This document shows positions 2,388-5,929 of a stretch of 6,484 bases of DNA, piece by piece. The notes under the pieces were generated by a model, which was not told the origin of the DNA, did no database searches, and saw only the letters and a program-made list of their open reading frames with translations. Position 1 is the stretch's first letter. Every line of letters begins with the position of its first letter. The translations under genes and the position numbers were made by a program. This DNA comes from Chloroflexia bacterium. Its GTDB lineage: Bacteria; Chloroflexota; Chloroflexia; QHBQ01; JADMIH01. The DNA lies in the NCBI GenBank assembly GCA_025927935.1, contig JAICKM010000404.1:1-6484 (forward strand), read 5' to 3'.

Positions 2388-2417
2388 TTGACAAGGACTA
2401 TTGAGTGGCAGTAAGAT
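2388..2417 (+). promoter_or_regulatory. Sigma-70-type promoter of the aroF leader transcript
   Basis: TTGACA (2388-2393), 18-bp spacer, TAAGAT (2412-2417). The predicted start is near 2424, giving a leader of about 315 nt before aroF. It is back to back with the T-box operon promoter; the two -35 boxes are 29 bp apart. Confidence 0.72.
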
Positions 2418-2471
2418 AACCGCATAGTGTTCGAGATGGGCGGGCAACCGCTCCAACAGAGGACCAGCCGA

Positions 2472-2606
2472 GTGATTAGCAAGGCAGCACGCAGCACCAC
2501 CCTCCTGACGGGGATCCTGCTCCACGGCGATAGCTTTTTTAGCTATTACCGCGTGTACGCCTTTGCGGCGTACCACTACCGCCTGCCGCACGCTCGGATC
2601 CCGTAA
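2472..2606 (+). CDS. Phe/Tyr-rich leader peptide of the aroF attenuator (44 aa)
   Basis: An open frame from GTG 2472 to TAA 2604-2606. AGAGGA (2458-2463) lies 8 bases before the GTG. The frame is also open to ATG 2436 and GTG 2427, but those lack a good ribosome site and lie very near the predicted transcription start. Residues 21-36 read SFFSYYRVYAFAAYHY: three Phe and five Tyr codons in 15 positions (2535-2579). The peptide itself probably has no function beyond being translated. Ribosomes short of charged tRNA-Phe or tRNA-Tyr would stall at these codons and change folding of the downstream RNA. The product it precedes, DAHP synthase, makes the precursor of Phe and Tyr, which supports the reading. 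I infer the mechanism from sequence; no expression data are available. Confidence 0.78.
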   Translation: MISKAARSTTLLTGILLHGDSFFSYYRVYAFAAYHYRLPHARIP

Positions 2607-2647
2607 CTCTCGCCTCTCGAATTACATACCGGCTCTTGAGCGTGTGG
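2586..2647 (+). promoter_or_regulatory. Predicted antiterminator pairing (attenuator segments 2 and 3)
   Basis: CCGCACGCTC (2586-2595, inside the leader ORF) can pair over all ten positions, one a G-U pair, with GAGCGTGTGG (2638-2647), the 5' arm of the terminator. GCGTGT (2551-2556) can in turn pair with GCACGC of segment 2. A ribosome stalled at the Phe/Tyr codons around 2535-2549 would cover segment 1 and free segment 2 to block the terminator. A ribosome reaching the stop at 2604 would cover segment 2 and let the terminator form. Confidence 0.68.
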
Positions 2648-2667
2648 CCCCAGGTCACACGCTTTTT
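2639..2667 (+). terminator. Intrinsic terminator (attenuator) upstream of aroF
   Basis: AGCGTGTGGCC (2639-2649) and GGTCACACGCT (2653-2663) form an 11-bp stem with one G-U pair and a CCA loop. A T-rich run TTTTTGTTTGT follows. It lies 32 bp after the leader stop codon and 76 bp before aroF, which fits a transcription attenuator rather than the end of an upstream gene. Confidence 0.88.
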
Positions 2668-2681
2668 GTTTGTGTCAATCA

Positions 2682-2742
2682 AAGGAGGAACCGACGAATG
2701 AACGTATTGTTTATGCCAACCCAAGGAGGAACGGACCAATGA
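2682..2742 (+). repeat. Direct repeat of ribosome site plus start codon, spaced 41 bp
   Basis: AAGGAGGAACCGACGAATGA (2682-2701) and AAGGAGGAACGGACCAATGA (2723-2742) agree at 18 of 20 positions. Each holds a full AAGGAGG and an ATG at the same spacing. The second drives aroF; the first drives the 14-codon ORF. Confidence 0.85.
2698..2742 (+). CDS. 14-codon mini-ORF overlapping the aroF start
   Basis: It encodes [14 protein letters not shown] and stops at TGA 2740-2742, giving an ATGA overlap with the aroF start at 2739. It has its own strong AAGGAGG, 9 bases before the ATG. This layout suggests translational coupling, or a relic of duplication of the initiation region. It has no aromatic codon run (a single Phe), so it is not part of the Phe/Tyr sensor. 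Whether the peptide is made is unknown. Confidence 0.5.
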
Positions 2743-3776
2743 TTGTCGTGATGCGCGCCGGGGCCACCCCGGAAGATGTGGAGGCGGTAATGACTCGGAT
2801 TCGGGAACTGGGCTACCGGCCCCACCGCTCGGAAGGCGAGGAGCGGACCGTGGTCGGCGTACTCGGCAACGACCGGCGGGTCGATCCGGGCGAACTGACG
2901 TGGATGCCGGGCGTCGAGAAGGTGGTGCCGATCCTGGCGCCGTATAAGCTCGCCAGCCGCGACTTCCAGCCCGCGCCGACTGTCATCGACCTGGCGGGCC
3001 TGCAAATTGGCGGCGCGGATGTGGTGCTCATCGCCGGGCCGTGCTCGGTGGAGAGCCACGCCCAGATGTTCGAGGTGGCGGAAGAACTGCAAGCCCTGGG
3101 CGTGCGCCTGTTGCGCGGCGGCGCGTTCAAGCCGCGCACCTCGCCATACTCTTTCCAGGGGTTGGGCGAAGAAGGGCTGCGCATCCTGGCCGAGGTGCGG
3201 GCCGAGTTCGGTATGGCGATTGTCACCGAGGTGATGGGGCCGGACGAGGTGGAGCTGGTCGGCAGCTATGCCGATGTATTGCAGGTGGGCGCGCGCAACA
3301 TGCAGAACTACCGGCTGCTGGAAGCGGTCGGGCGGCAGCAGCGCCCCGTGCTGCTCAAGCGCTCGCCCAGCGCCACCCTGGAAGAGTTACTGCTGGCCGC
3401 CGAGTATATCCTGGCCCAGGGCAACCCGCACGTGATGCTCTGCGAACGGGGTATCCGCAGCTACGACCCGCTGGTGCGCAACACGTTCGACCTCAACGCC
3501 GTGCCGCTGTTGAAGCAGTTGACCCACCTGCCGGTGATCGCGGACCCTAGCCACGGCACCGGACGCCGCGACATCGTTGGCCCGATGGCCCGCGCCGCCG
3601 TCGCCGCCGGGGCGGACGGCCTGATCGTGGAGGTCCACGCGCACCCCGAGGCAGCGCTGTCTGACGGCGCGCAATCGCTGCGCCCGGCAGACCTGGCGGC
3701 GCTGTTGCCGTCTCTGGAACATGCGGCCCTGGCGGCCGGGCGCAACCTGGCCCCGGTCGCCGCCGCTACACGCTAG
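2739..3776 (+). CDS. aroF: 3-deoxy-7-phosphoheptulonate (DAHP) synthase, type I-beta with N-terminal regulatory domain
   Basis: Condenses phosphoenolpyruvate with erythrose 4-phosphate, the committed first step of the shikimate pathway, in the cytoplasm. The product is 345 residues, close to the Thermotoga maritima enzyme (about 338). Residues 1-75 form the ferredoxin-like (ACT-like) domain that in Thermotoga mediates feedback inhibition by Tyr and Phe. The barrel begins near 92. Metal ligands fall at C102 (IAGPCS), H272 (DPSH), E298 (IVEVH) and D309 (LSDG), the same numbers I recall for the Thermotoga enzyme. The phosphate/PEP motif [11 protein letters not shown] is at 131-141, with GARNMQN at 184-190 and LLKR at 205-208. 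The ATG at 2739 has AAGGAGGA 8 bases upstream; the frame is open further upstream to 2670, but without a ribosome site. It is preceded by a Phe/Tyr leader attenuator and has no cotranscribed neighbour in view. Control at both enzyme and transcription level by Phe/Tyr is inferred. The symbol follows common usage for this type. Confidence 0.96.
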
Positions 3777-3780
3777 TTGC

Positions 3781-3886
3781 CGGCTACCCATCCGTGTCAC
3801 TCTGAGCGCAGCGAAGAGTCTCCGTCCCGCCGTGTATGTGACGAGATGCTTCCTTGCGCTCAGCATAGTAAGTTACCGGTAGCCGC
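3781..3886 (+). repeat. Dispersed hairpin repeat, copy B
   Basis: TGTCACTCTGAGCGCAGCGAAGAGTCTCCGTC (3795-3826) is the left arm. CTTCCTTGCGCTCAGCATA (3849-3867) is the right arm. CTGAGCGCA pairs with TGCGCTCAG and GAAG with CTTC. The element is bracketed by CGGCTACC (3781-3788) and its complement GGTAGCCG (3879-3886), giving a nested hairpin of about 106 bp. It starts a few bases after the aroF stop and may protect or end that mRNA, although no T-tract follows. Confidence 0.78.
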
Positions 3887-3890
3887 CAAT

Positions 3891-3917
3891 TGTCCCTCTG
3901 AACGCAGCGAAGAGTCT
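3891..3917 (+). repeat. Dispersed repeat, copy C (left arm only)
   Basis: TGTCCCTCTGAACGCAGCGAAGAGTCT differs from copy B at two positions and lacks the right arm. Together with its CAAT prefix it forms a direct repeat with copy D at a 42-bp period. Confidence 0.8.
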
Positions 3918-3932
3918 TACATAGTCCTCAAT

Positions 3933-4005
3933 TGTCACGCTGAGCGCAGCGAAGAGTCTCGTCTCGCGGGGTAAGAGACCGGATACTTCCTTGCGTTCAG
4001 CATAA
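3933..4005 (+). repeat. Dispersed hairpin repeat, copy D
   Basis: The left arm TGTCACGCTGAGCGCAGCGAAGAGTCT (3933-3959) and right arm CTTCCTTGCGTTCAGCATAA (3986-4005) fold on each other as in copy B, with a G-U pair in the stem on the plus strand. Both arms differ from copy B while keeping most pairs, which fits a hairpin-forming element. All four copies in the window share one orientation. Confidence 0.78.
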
Positions 4006-4455: not shown

Positions 4456-5865
4456 CTATTCCGGCTCCTCGTTCTTGATCCGCTCGTATAGCTCGGTGGT
4501 CGTCGCCGTGGGCTGGACACCCAGGTCGGCACCCAGCACCTCCTCGCAGATCTGGTACTGCAAGAGCGCCTGGTTGCGCTGGCCCAGCGCGTGGAGGCAG
4601 CGCATCACGTAGCGATGGGCGTCTTCGCGATAGTTGTCCTTCGCCAGCATCTTGCGCGCGGCCTGGAGACATTCGTCGTAGCGCCCGGCCTGCAAATACT
4701 GCTCACAGAGCCGGGCCAGCATCCGCATATACATTTCGCGCAGGTGCTTGCGGTCATTGTCCGTCCAGTCGTCGTACAGGTTCTCGACCAGATAATCGTC
4801 GTGGTACAACTCGGCAGCGGCCTCGTAGGGTGCGACAGCGTCGTCGAAGCGCCCGGCCCGTTCCAGCGTCTGGCCCTGGCGCGAATGATCCACGAAGCGG
4901 TCGACATCGGTATTGATCGTCGCCAGCGGGTTAAAGAAGTAGGCGTCGTCGCGGTAGATGATGTAGCCGGGCGTGTCGCCGCTGCCCACGCTCAGCATCT
5001 GGCGCAGGCTCGAAATCGCCAGGTGCAGACGGTGCGTGCCGGTCTTGATCTCCACATCGGGCCAGAGCGTATGCAATAGCGCGTCCTTCGAGGTCGGGCG
5101 CGAGCGATGGGCCAGCATGAACTTGAAGATGTCGGCGGCCTTGCGGCTCTGGCGCAGGCTGATCTCCTGGTCGCCCACGGCCACGCGGAACTGGCCGAAC
5201 ATCTGGATATACAGAGGCGGCATGGCGGCGGTCGCGGCAGGCAAGGCCGCCTCCGGCAGCAGCGCCGCAGGGTCGCCGCCCGCGGCCAGGGCTAGGCCCT
5301 GCACCGTGGGCCAGGAGTCGCGGGCGAACTTCAGCATGGCCTGGAACTGCTGGGTGAGCTTGACTTCTTGCTCCTCCAGTTGCTTGAGCAAGTTGGTGGC
5401 ATGCTGGCGCATCTGGGTTTGCTGCTGGTACGAGGTCGCCAGTTGCTGGGCCAGGTAGCAGGCCATGGCGAGGGTCGGTTGCTGGGTGCTGAGGGCCAGG
5501 TCGTGGGCACGCTGCAAATAAGGCGCGGCGCCCGCCGAGTCGTTGGCATAGAGGTGGGCCAGGCCCAGCAGCCAGCTTGCCCAGCCGGTATAGGTATCGC
5601 GTTCCGGCCCGTCGGCGCGCGCCAGCGCGACCCGCGCGGCGTCGCCCGCCGCAGCGGCATCGCCATAGATCAGCGCATTGAGCGCACGCTGGAGCAAGGT
5701 GTCAATGTCACCTTGCATCCAGAGGCTGGGAGTAGGCCGGTCGCCGTCAGGCTCCGGGCCATGTCGGGGGTTTTCCACGCTATTTTGGGCACTGAATATG
5801 CGGAGCACGGGCCGAGCCGGGCGCTTGCCGCTCTGATCGTCCTCCGGAGGTTTTGGATGTTTCAC
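4456..5865 (-). CDS. SARP/BTAD-family transcriptional regulator
   Basis: A 469-residue predicted DNA-binding protein; numbers count from the GTG start. An Arg/Pro-rich tail comes first. Residues about 50-130 form helical, TPR-like repeats (NALIYGDAAAAGDAARVAL; SWLLGLAHLYANDSAGA). About 140-180 is Gln/Glu-rich and likely coiled coil. Residues 217-316 are an OmpR-like winged helix (YIQMFGQFRVAVG, RKAADIFKFMLAHRSRPTSKD, LWPD, LHLAISSLRQML). Residues 319-466 are a bacterial transcriptional activator domain built of TPR helices and ending 'LGADLGVQPTATTTELYERI'. SARPs usually start with the winged helix, so the helical N-terminus is an added module. It has no ATPase domain. I chose GTG 5865 because AGGGGGG (5872-5878) lies 6 bases upstream; TTG 5871 is in frame but abuts that site. 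It is monocistronic in view. Its targets are unknown. Confidence 0.85.
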   Translation of the reverse strand: MKHPKPPEDDQSGKRPARPVLRIFSAQNSVENPRHGPEPDGDRPTPSLWMQGDIDTLLQRALNALIYGDAAAAGDAARVALARADGPERDTYTGWASWLLGLAHLYANDSAGAAPYLQRAHDLALSTQQPTLAMACYLAQQLATSYQQQTQMRQHATNLLKQLEEQEVKLTQQFQAMLKFARDSWPTVQGLALAAGGDPAALLPEAALPAATAAMPPLYIQMFGQFRVAVGDQEISLRQSRKAADIFKFMLAHRSRPTSKDALLHTLWPDVEIKTGTHRLHLAISSLRQMLSVGSGDTPGYIIYRDDAYFFNPLATINTDVDRFVDHSRQGQTLERAGRFDDAVAPYEAAAELYHDDYLVENLYDDWTDNDRKHLREMYMRMLARLCEQYLQAGRYDECLQAARKMLAKDNYREDAHRYVMRCLHALGQRNQALLQYQICEEVLGADLGVQPTATTTELYERIKNEEPE

Positions 5866-5929
5866 CGGCAACCCCCCTGGGGTCGAGTTCGAGTTTTAGA
5901 CAGCCTGGGCCATCAGACCGCTTCAGCCG

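Follow-up and report, generated by a model that had tools for sequence, protein, structure and literature searches.

Probable Leader Peptide Attenuators of Aromatic Biosynthesis

Transcription of a DAHP synthase gene is attenuated through a leader peptide with Phe and Tyr codons in C. glutamicum, where aroR, a Phe-Tyr-Phe leader, stands before the aroF operon and, as far as the available text of the sources goes, mediates a response to Phe, not to Tyr (Neshat et al., 2014; PMC11802643, PMC11525245). In Acholeplasma, the motif uORFC-13-1 combines a uORF containing at least one Phe codon with an adjacent intrinsic terminator before aroF (3-deoxy-7-phosphoheptulonate synthase); the accessible portion of that report gives 24 examples, only from Acholeplasma and unassigned environmental sequences, and mentions no run of Tyr codons (PMC8632094). 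The same logic, in which control codons decide between antiterminator and terminator, is ascribed in the excerpted account to pheA (leader pheL), pheST and trp (leader trpL) of E. coli (PMC11802643), and an attenuator has reportedly been suggested for E. coli aroF. A 2010 survey states that leader peptide systems were unshown beyond Proteobacteria and Actinobacteria before its own case from the Firmicutes (PMC2965389), and a 2005 study of Actinobacteria reports that operons for Phe and Tyr are not preceded by any conserved RNA structure. In full-text searches, a scope that mostly leaves aside subscription journals, we recognized no account of such attenuators for Chloroflexota, Planctomycetota or Calditrichota. 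The remark in a preliminary description of the present locus that no case from this lineage was known to it holds for Chloroflexota within that scope; DAHP synthase cases as such do exist (C. glutamicum aroR, Acholeplasma uORFC-13-1).

The locus analyzed here lies in a stretch of 6,484 nucleotides, referred to as the window. We hold with good confidence that it carries a ribosome-mediated transcription attenuator of the classical type, in which a Phe/Tyr leader would control a Thermotoga-type DAHP synthase gene. Like C. glutamicum aroR, as described in the text available, it would attenuate transcription of a DAHP synthase gene by a leader peptide with Phe and Tyr codons; aroR, however, is actinobacterial and has Phe-Tyr-Phe, whereas the window has eight aromatic codons and a Chloroflexota-like aroF, and is known from sequence alone. 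It shares with uORFC-13-1, going by the accessible description, a possible promoter, a uORF with Phe codons and a terminator before aroF. The E. coli attenuators, on the same partial account, concern other genes in another lineage, and the window differs from them in having no 1:2 hairpin at the place proposed for it. The site is therefore very probably an ordinary attenuator of a known kind, and the new part is its spread across lineages. By computation we can show the elements in the sequence, two hairpins that exclude each other, a fold that depends on ribosome position, and a recurrence of the arrangement before aroF in other lineages.

Anatomy of the Leader Region

The features of the region are collected in Table 1. 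Both flanking signals of the preliminary description, a promoter and a terminator after the leader stop, were recovered, and by its consensus match the promoter-like box is the putative promoter of a leader-aroF transcript. The leader ORF might also begin earlier in frame, at 2427 or 2436; by eye, neither start has a comparable ribosome site.

Table 1. Features of the leader region and of aroF, numbered from the first letter of the window.
Feature	Position	Strand	Description
Promoter-like box, sigma-70-type (putative)	2388..2417	+	TTGACA 2388-2393, 18-nt spacer, TAAGAT 2412-2417; 10/12 consensus matches
Shine-Dalgarno-like site	2458..2463	+	AGAGGA, 8 nt 5' of the leader GTG; by eye
Leader peptide ORF	2472..2606	+	44 codons, GTG 2472 to TAA 2604-2606; reads MISKAARSTTLLTGILLHGDSFFSYYRVYAFAAYHYRLPHARIP
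Control codons (putative)	2535..2579	+	FFSYYRVYAFAAYHY; 15 codons, of which 3 are Phe and 5 are Tyr
Local hairpin	2555..2573	+	7 bp, GUACGCC-UUUGC-GGCGUAC, inside the control codons; from folding
Segment 2 (predicted antiterminator 5' arm)	2585..2597	+	partner 2636-2648
Predicted intrinsic terminator (segments 3 and 4)	2638..2664	+	12 pairs, 3-nt loop, then TTTTTGTTTG
Second mini-ORF	2698..2742	+	14 codons; own Shine-Dalgarno-like AAAGGAGGA; TGA overlaps the aroF ATG (ATGA)
aroF, type I-beta DAHP synthase	2739..3776	+	ATG 2739; N-terminal ferredoxin-like domain

The cluster of aromatic codons, which begin at 2535, 2538, 2544, 2547, 2556, 2562, 2571 and 2577, is as dense as had been reported: when the 600 nt 5' of aroF were dinucleotide-shuffled 10,000 times, the best short ORF never contained eight Phe/Tyr in 15 codons, and in seven shuffles it contained seven. 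The terminator stem starts 31 nt beyond the leader stop and is followed by a U-rich tract that extends to about 2674. As a pattern alone, it is weak evidence, since a scan of 2200-2900 found one terminator against 0.7 expected from shuffles; more telling is the folding energy (-20.3 kcal/mol for 2621-2670, z -4.12). Riboswitches, too, have this layout, in which a biosynthetic gene is preceded by a 5' leader with alternative hairpins. That a riboswitch or T-box senses a metabolite or a tRNA directly is nevertheless hardly credible here, given that a search of the window and 18 related loci against Rfam (T-box, amino acid leader families, riboswitches) returned no match at gathering score and that such an element would leave the aromatic codon cluster unexplained.

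Alternative Pairing and the Position of the Ribosome

The complementarity of 2586-2595 to 2638-2647 that had been described as complete holds with one G-U pair, and the helix extends to 2585:2648. The antiterminator stretch 2578-2653 folds at -27.7 kcal/mol (z -3.81), and segment 2 forms a duplex of -24.3 kcal/mol with the 5' arm of the terminator, compared to -16.8 kcal/mol for shuffled segments (p 0.012); when 57 segments from other sites were put in its place, none gave a duplex as strong.

The proposed attenuator would work as follows. Transcription would begin near 2424, and a ribosome would start the leader at 2472. If charged tRNA-Phe or tRNA-Tyr were scarce, the ribosome would stall within codons 2535-2573 and leave segment 2 (2585-2595) free to pair with the nascent terminator 5' arm (2638-2648); with the antiterminator paired, RNA polymerase would read through into aroF. 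If both charged tRNAs were plentiful, the ribosome would arrive at the stop codon and, as segment 2 ends before that codon, would mask it there, so that the terminator would form and transcription would end before aroF. From these elements we infer use of the promoter, translation of the leader, actual termination and a response to Phe and Tyr; the cell would probably turn DAHP synthase up when Phe or Tyr run short.

The dependence on ribosome position was computed codon by codon: a ribosome was placed on the leader, and the nascent RNA in front of it, ending at 2650, was folded. If the ribosome covers 12 nt past the A-site codon, the antiterminator has a probability of 1.00 for stalls at the first seven of the eight aromatic codons; the value falls to 0.28 at the eighth codon and to 0.00 at the stop, which is the behavior looked for in an attenuator. 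The eighth codon depends on the assumed footprint, with 0.55 under a cover of 10 nt and 0.00 under 15 nt, where the seventh codon drops to 0.71; a stall at the eighth codon would thus, in this model, mostly not antiterminate. Folding at equilibrium gives a mixed picture: under 12 nt of cover, the full-length RNA favors the terminator for stalls at 2544, 2547 and 2571, and among relatives at full-length equilibrium 37 of 46 sites have a mean terminator probability of at least 0.7 with the ribosome on aromatic codons. The antiterminator must therefore form first and hold. As whole-leader equilibrium folding is uninformative for most relatives, nascent folding and duplex energies were used instead.

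A 1:2 (pause or protector) hairpin is a standard part of E. coli attenuators, and classical attenuators terminate without translation; neither trait appears in the nascent folds of the window. The pairing of 2551-2556 with segment 2 that the preliminary description had named fails, its probability (with 2590-2595) being near 0 in the folds made, which prefer the hairpin 2555-2573, so that a 1:2 protector is missing or lies elsewhere. Without any ribosome, the nascent antiterminator reaches 0.99, whereas the complete transcript at equilibrium adopts the terminator (1.00); the nascent antiterminator forms as well with a ribosome in the start region. Since the antiterminator forms ribosome-free and no 1:2 protector was found, the model relies on a ribosome at or near the stop when the terminator arm is made. 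Of the trp/phe-type attenuation proposed earlier, the leader, the terminator and the antiterminator switching stand, but the named 1:2 pairing does not.

A cruder measure, the fraction of the terminator arm that is paired upstream, was also compared. In the window it hardly differs from shuffled sequences, at 0.77 against 0.73 (p 0.30), and falls to 0.56 with a ribosome at the stop. Across 44 sites, a ribosome on aromatic codons gives a larger fraction than one at the stop in 42, and the fraction exceeds the shuffled mean in 35, with p < 0.05 in only 11; the overlapping-frame sites L023 and L030 were left out of this comparison and of the first set of duplex energies.

The DAHP Synthase Gene and Its Start Region

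The product of aroF is a DAHP synthase (NF006421, 476 bits, cut-off 335; TIGR01361, 381 bits, cut-off 267.75) that consists of an FXD domain (PF18152, 84.3 bits, cut-off 27) and a DAHP_synth_1 domain (PF00793, 262.9 bits, cut-off 25.5). Matching solved structures are 4grs, 1rzm/3pg9 and 1vr6, over residues 1-323 or more of 345. We take 1rzm/3pg9 to be the DAHP synthase of Thermotoga maritima, an enzyme (1rzm) that is presumably inhibited by Tyr and Phe. The assignment to the Thermotoga type made earlier is thereby borne out, since the ferredoxin-like regulatory domain and the DAHP_synth_1 core that define type I-beta are both present. As expected of an attenuator, the gene downstream of the leader belongs to the synthesis of the amino acids that are putatively sensed. 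The closest other aroF proteins (P0002-P0008) are 78-83% identical, and one of them is labelled Chloroflexia bacterium. A tree built from 80 aroF proteins gives the window a long branch with a weak placement beside Planctomycetota (96/75), and the rows nearest to it by path are Chloroflexota. The window presumably stems from a lineage of Chloroflexota that has so far gone unsampled.

Between terminator and aroF lies the second mini-ORF, which would probably couple its translation to that of aroF. Its surroundings contain two ribosome sites with start codons, 2681-2701 (AAAGGAGGAACCGACGAATGA) and 2722-2742 (CAAGGAGGAACGGACCAATGA), which are alike in 18 of 21 positions by eye and lie 41 nt apart, the first of them opening the mini-ORF; this looks like a local duplication that created the coupled mini-ORF. 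There is no sign that the mini-ORF is conserved: among 163 aroF starts, eight short ORFs with a Shine-Dalgarno-like stretch end at the start of aroF, in seven loci.

The mini-ORF, with its strong Shine-Dalgarno-like site and its overlap with the start of aroF, would also fit a constitutive premature terminator that merely trims aroF, the leader being translated for other reasons, such as feeding ribosomes to the gene, without any control by amino acids. Reinitiation at leader ORFs has been proposed in general terms, at least in the excerpt of the source (PMC4833913), and the formation of the nascent antiterminator without a ribosome is in line with this idea too. However, the aromatic codons, their recurrence before aroF and the complementarity of segment 2 would all be left unexplained, and we regard constitutive termination as improbable compared with attenuation.

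Several observations concern the neighborhood of aroF. On the reverse strand, a single ORF (1235-2092) encodes both a cupin domain (PF07883), at the N-terminus, and an RNase H-like domain, at the C-terminus, a seemingly unusual combination. Downstream of aroF, a SARP/BTAD-type regulator is encoded at 4456-5871 on the reverse strand, with two relatives named Chloroflexia; the SARP relative P0131 and the aroF relative P0007 each lie on a contig of 2,614,392 bases, which is probably one and the same. Repeat-like DNA with the translations CHSEPSEES and CHSERSEES (about 834-896 and 3777-3974, forward strand) flanks the aroF region. Repeats of the CHSEPSEES type resemble short intergenic repeats of other assemblies.

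Recurrence of the Arrangement Upstream of aroF

Upstream regions of aroF were surveyed for a leader ORF with at least 6 F/Y/W in 15 codons together with a terminator. In a first survey of 110 loci, with 129 aroF hits that had at least 200 nt upstream and 2400 nt scanned, 49 hits were positive, compared to none on the reverse strand and none after one shuffle of each sequence. A scan of the same 110 loci over their full length and on both strands (1.13 Mb) gave 47 leader-terminator combinations, of which 45 lay upstream of an aroF on the same strand; the two away from aroF were counted as false positives. An enlarged survey with a uniform 1500 nt added Chloroflexia, the G523 class, Planctomycetota, Calditrichota and the class to which a Clostridiales locus belongs. 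Here, 62 of 250 aroF hits were positive, against one of 250 on the reverse strand (in Calditrichota) and none of 250 shuffled sequences (one shuffle each). Positives were distributed over loci L001-L080 (34/93), Anaerolineae (7/36), Chloroflexia (7/30), the G523 class (1/2), Planctomycetota (3/30), Calditrichota (8/29) and the Clostridiales class (2/30); each set from a genome search holds the best 30 loci at most, and not every match. Hits with less than 200 nt upstream (among L001-L080: L003 and L074, the latter of the Gemmatimonadota set) and tblastn hits that do not start near residue 1 were dropped. The expectation that relatives keep the aromatic codons and the alternative pairing was thus borne out in several classes and phyla, but 188 of the 250 aroF hits have no leader-terminator combination within 1500 nt upstream.

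Within L001-L080, the positives over 2400 nt come from 36 loci, namely 26 of Chloroflexota, five of Planctomycetota, two each of Calditrichota and Bacillota, and L026; none was found among the eight Acidobacteriota and four Gemmatimonadota examined there. Labels of MAGs can be wrong, as illustrated by L026, which is labelled Deltaproteobacteria and whose aroF nests among Chloroflexota in the tree. The survey took in relatives other than the 78-83% identical P0002-P0008. Among 400 genomes drawn from the phylum, none matched at E 1e-138; a further draw, of 390 genomes (with handles shared with the first), queried with P0007, gave one match, 62% identical to P0007; and in the G299 class (158 genomes, reached from a Herpetosiphonaceae locus) identity was up to 61% among the matches listed.

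Since the survey sets overlap (e.g., L034 = L176, L049 = L180, L030 = L204), different leaders were counted, of which there are 57. Directly before aroF stand 22 of them, and 35 precede another gene, which resembles a type I chorismate mutase in 33 (by BLAST to L126; Pfam CM_1 was found in all four that were tested) and is a prephenate dehydratase in one (L088). Judging by order and strand, chorismate mutase would share an operon with aroF. L194 was rejected as an attenuator; it is a false positive in which a leader-like ORF precedes ruvX. Sites such as L141, L126, L173 and L054 share the anatomy of the window before aroF, either directly or with chorismate mutase first. L141, from another class of Chloroflexota, even repeats its order, with a promoter-like box (by eye), leader, terminator and aroF next; its leader reads VMARLDSTCAYYFYRFFWYYAAVSTRGRVVTPPD, with the aromatic part ...CAYYFYRFFWYYAAV.... 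By eye, the leader peptides of other lineages look unrelated to that of the window, and they differ in that 32 of the 57 clusters include Trp and in the frequent placement before chorismate mutase.

Some loci depart in organization. Two aroF genes lie close together on one strand in L019, L028, L037, L052, L065, L104, L090, L093, L097, L099 and L103, and in the first six of these both stand behind one common leader. In L170-L172 of the Planctomycetota set, a terminator lies about 70 nt before aroF, and a common leader ORF of about 50 codons has its aromatic residues widely spread, unlike the compact clusters elsewhere. P0058 (430 aa) joins a type I chorismate mutase (PF07736) to DAHP synthase (PF00793) without the ferredoxin-like domain, and chorismate mutase is fused to prephenate dehydratase and ACT in L029 (by Pfam) and L060 (by eye).

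Possible Selection on the Antiterminator Pairing

Pairing of segment 2 with the terminator arm appears to be kept across sites. Its duplex is stronger than the shuffled mean in 49 of 58 sites (the window and the 57, L194 included), with a Stouffer z of -12.6 that overstates the case because related sites are not independent. Compared with segments swapped in from other sites, the native segment 2 has a median rank of 0.19 and falls in the best tenth in 15 of 58 sites. In Calditrichota (six sequences, with the structure taken from one), 87% of the cells of the 2:3 helix pair, compared to 30-48% in slid registers, and double changes occur in two pairs and three cells; among 500 shuffles, 32 reach as many double-changed cells and 165 as many pairs, so this test is supportive but small. 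In seven sequences of Chloroflexia, 96% of the cells pair and no double change is seen, the segment being almost invariant.

These comparisons also bear on a reading of the leader as the gene of a functional small protein to which the terminator would belong. The leader is, after all, an ORF with a stretch resembling a ribosome site. Across relatives, however, the aromatic cluster and the RNA pairing are what recurs, whereas the flanking residues differ by eye, and where C-terminal residues are common, as in the peptide end WLLRV of Chloroflexia, their codons form the antiterminator arm. A small protein is accordingly very improbable as the reason for the ORF, and attenuation by a ribosome on the leader remains our preferred reading.

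One Amino Acid or Several

Which amino acids the attenuator would heed is a separate matter. The same attenuator might sense one amino acid only, most likely Phe, with the Tyr codons adding little. C. glutamicum sets a precedent in that its leader has Phe-Tyr-Phe and yet, in the text available, its operon answers to Phe, not to Tyr (PMC11802643). In contrast, the leader of the window has more Tyr than Phe codons, and nascent folding antiterminates for stalls at both kinds. Moreover, the clusters of the 57 leaders contain 210 Phe, 185 Tyr and 47 Trp codons, and with 185 of them the Tyr codons are not incidental. We consider sensing of one amino acid alone rather unlikely, although it deserves to be kept in mind; dual sensing of Phe and Tyr is a prediction, against which the C. 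glutamicum case cautions.

Implications for Shikimate Control

On a broader view, for and against which we see about equal chances, attenuation by leaders with pooled aromatic codons may be one of the principal means by which bacteria control the way into the shikimate pathway; this would apply to much of the Chloroflexota and to some lineages within Planctomycetota, Calditrichota and Bacillota. Such an attenuator, lying 5' of aroF on its own or of an aroH-(pheA)-aroF operon, would sense several inputs, the charging of tRNAs for Phe, Tyr and often Trp, and unrelated RNAs would have been recruited repeatedly into its 2:3 / 3:4 switch. Where Phe, Tyr and Trp codons are mixed in one leader, the question arises whether the switch sums three signals or heeds one. 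On this view, attenuation would complement the feedback inhibition of DAHP synthase. The 57 leaders, of which L194 is clearly false, would extend leader peptide systems to Chloroflexota, Planctomycetota and Calditrichota. The sites give direct predictions, testable with reporters, on how these bacteria control the synthesis of aromatic amino acids.
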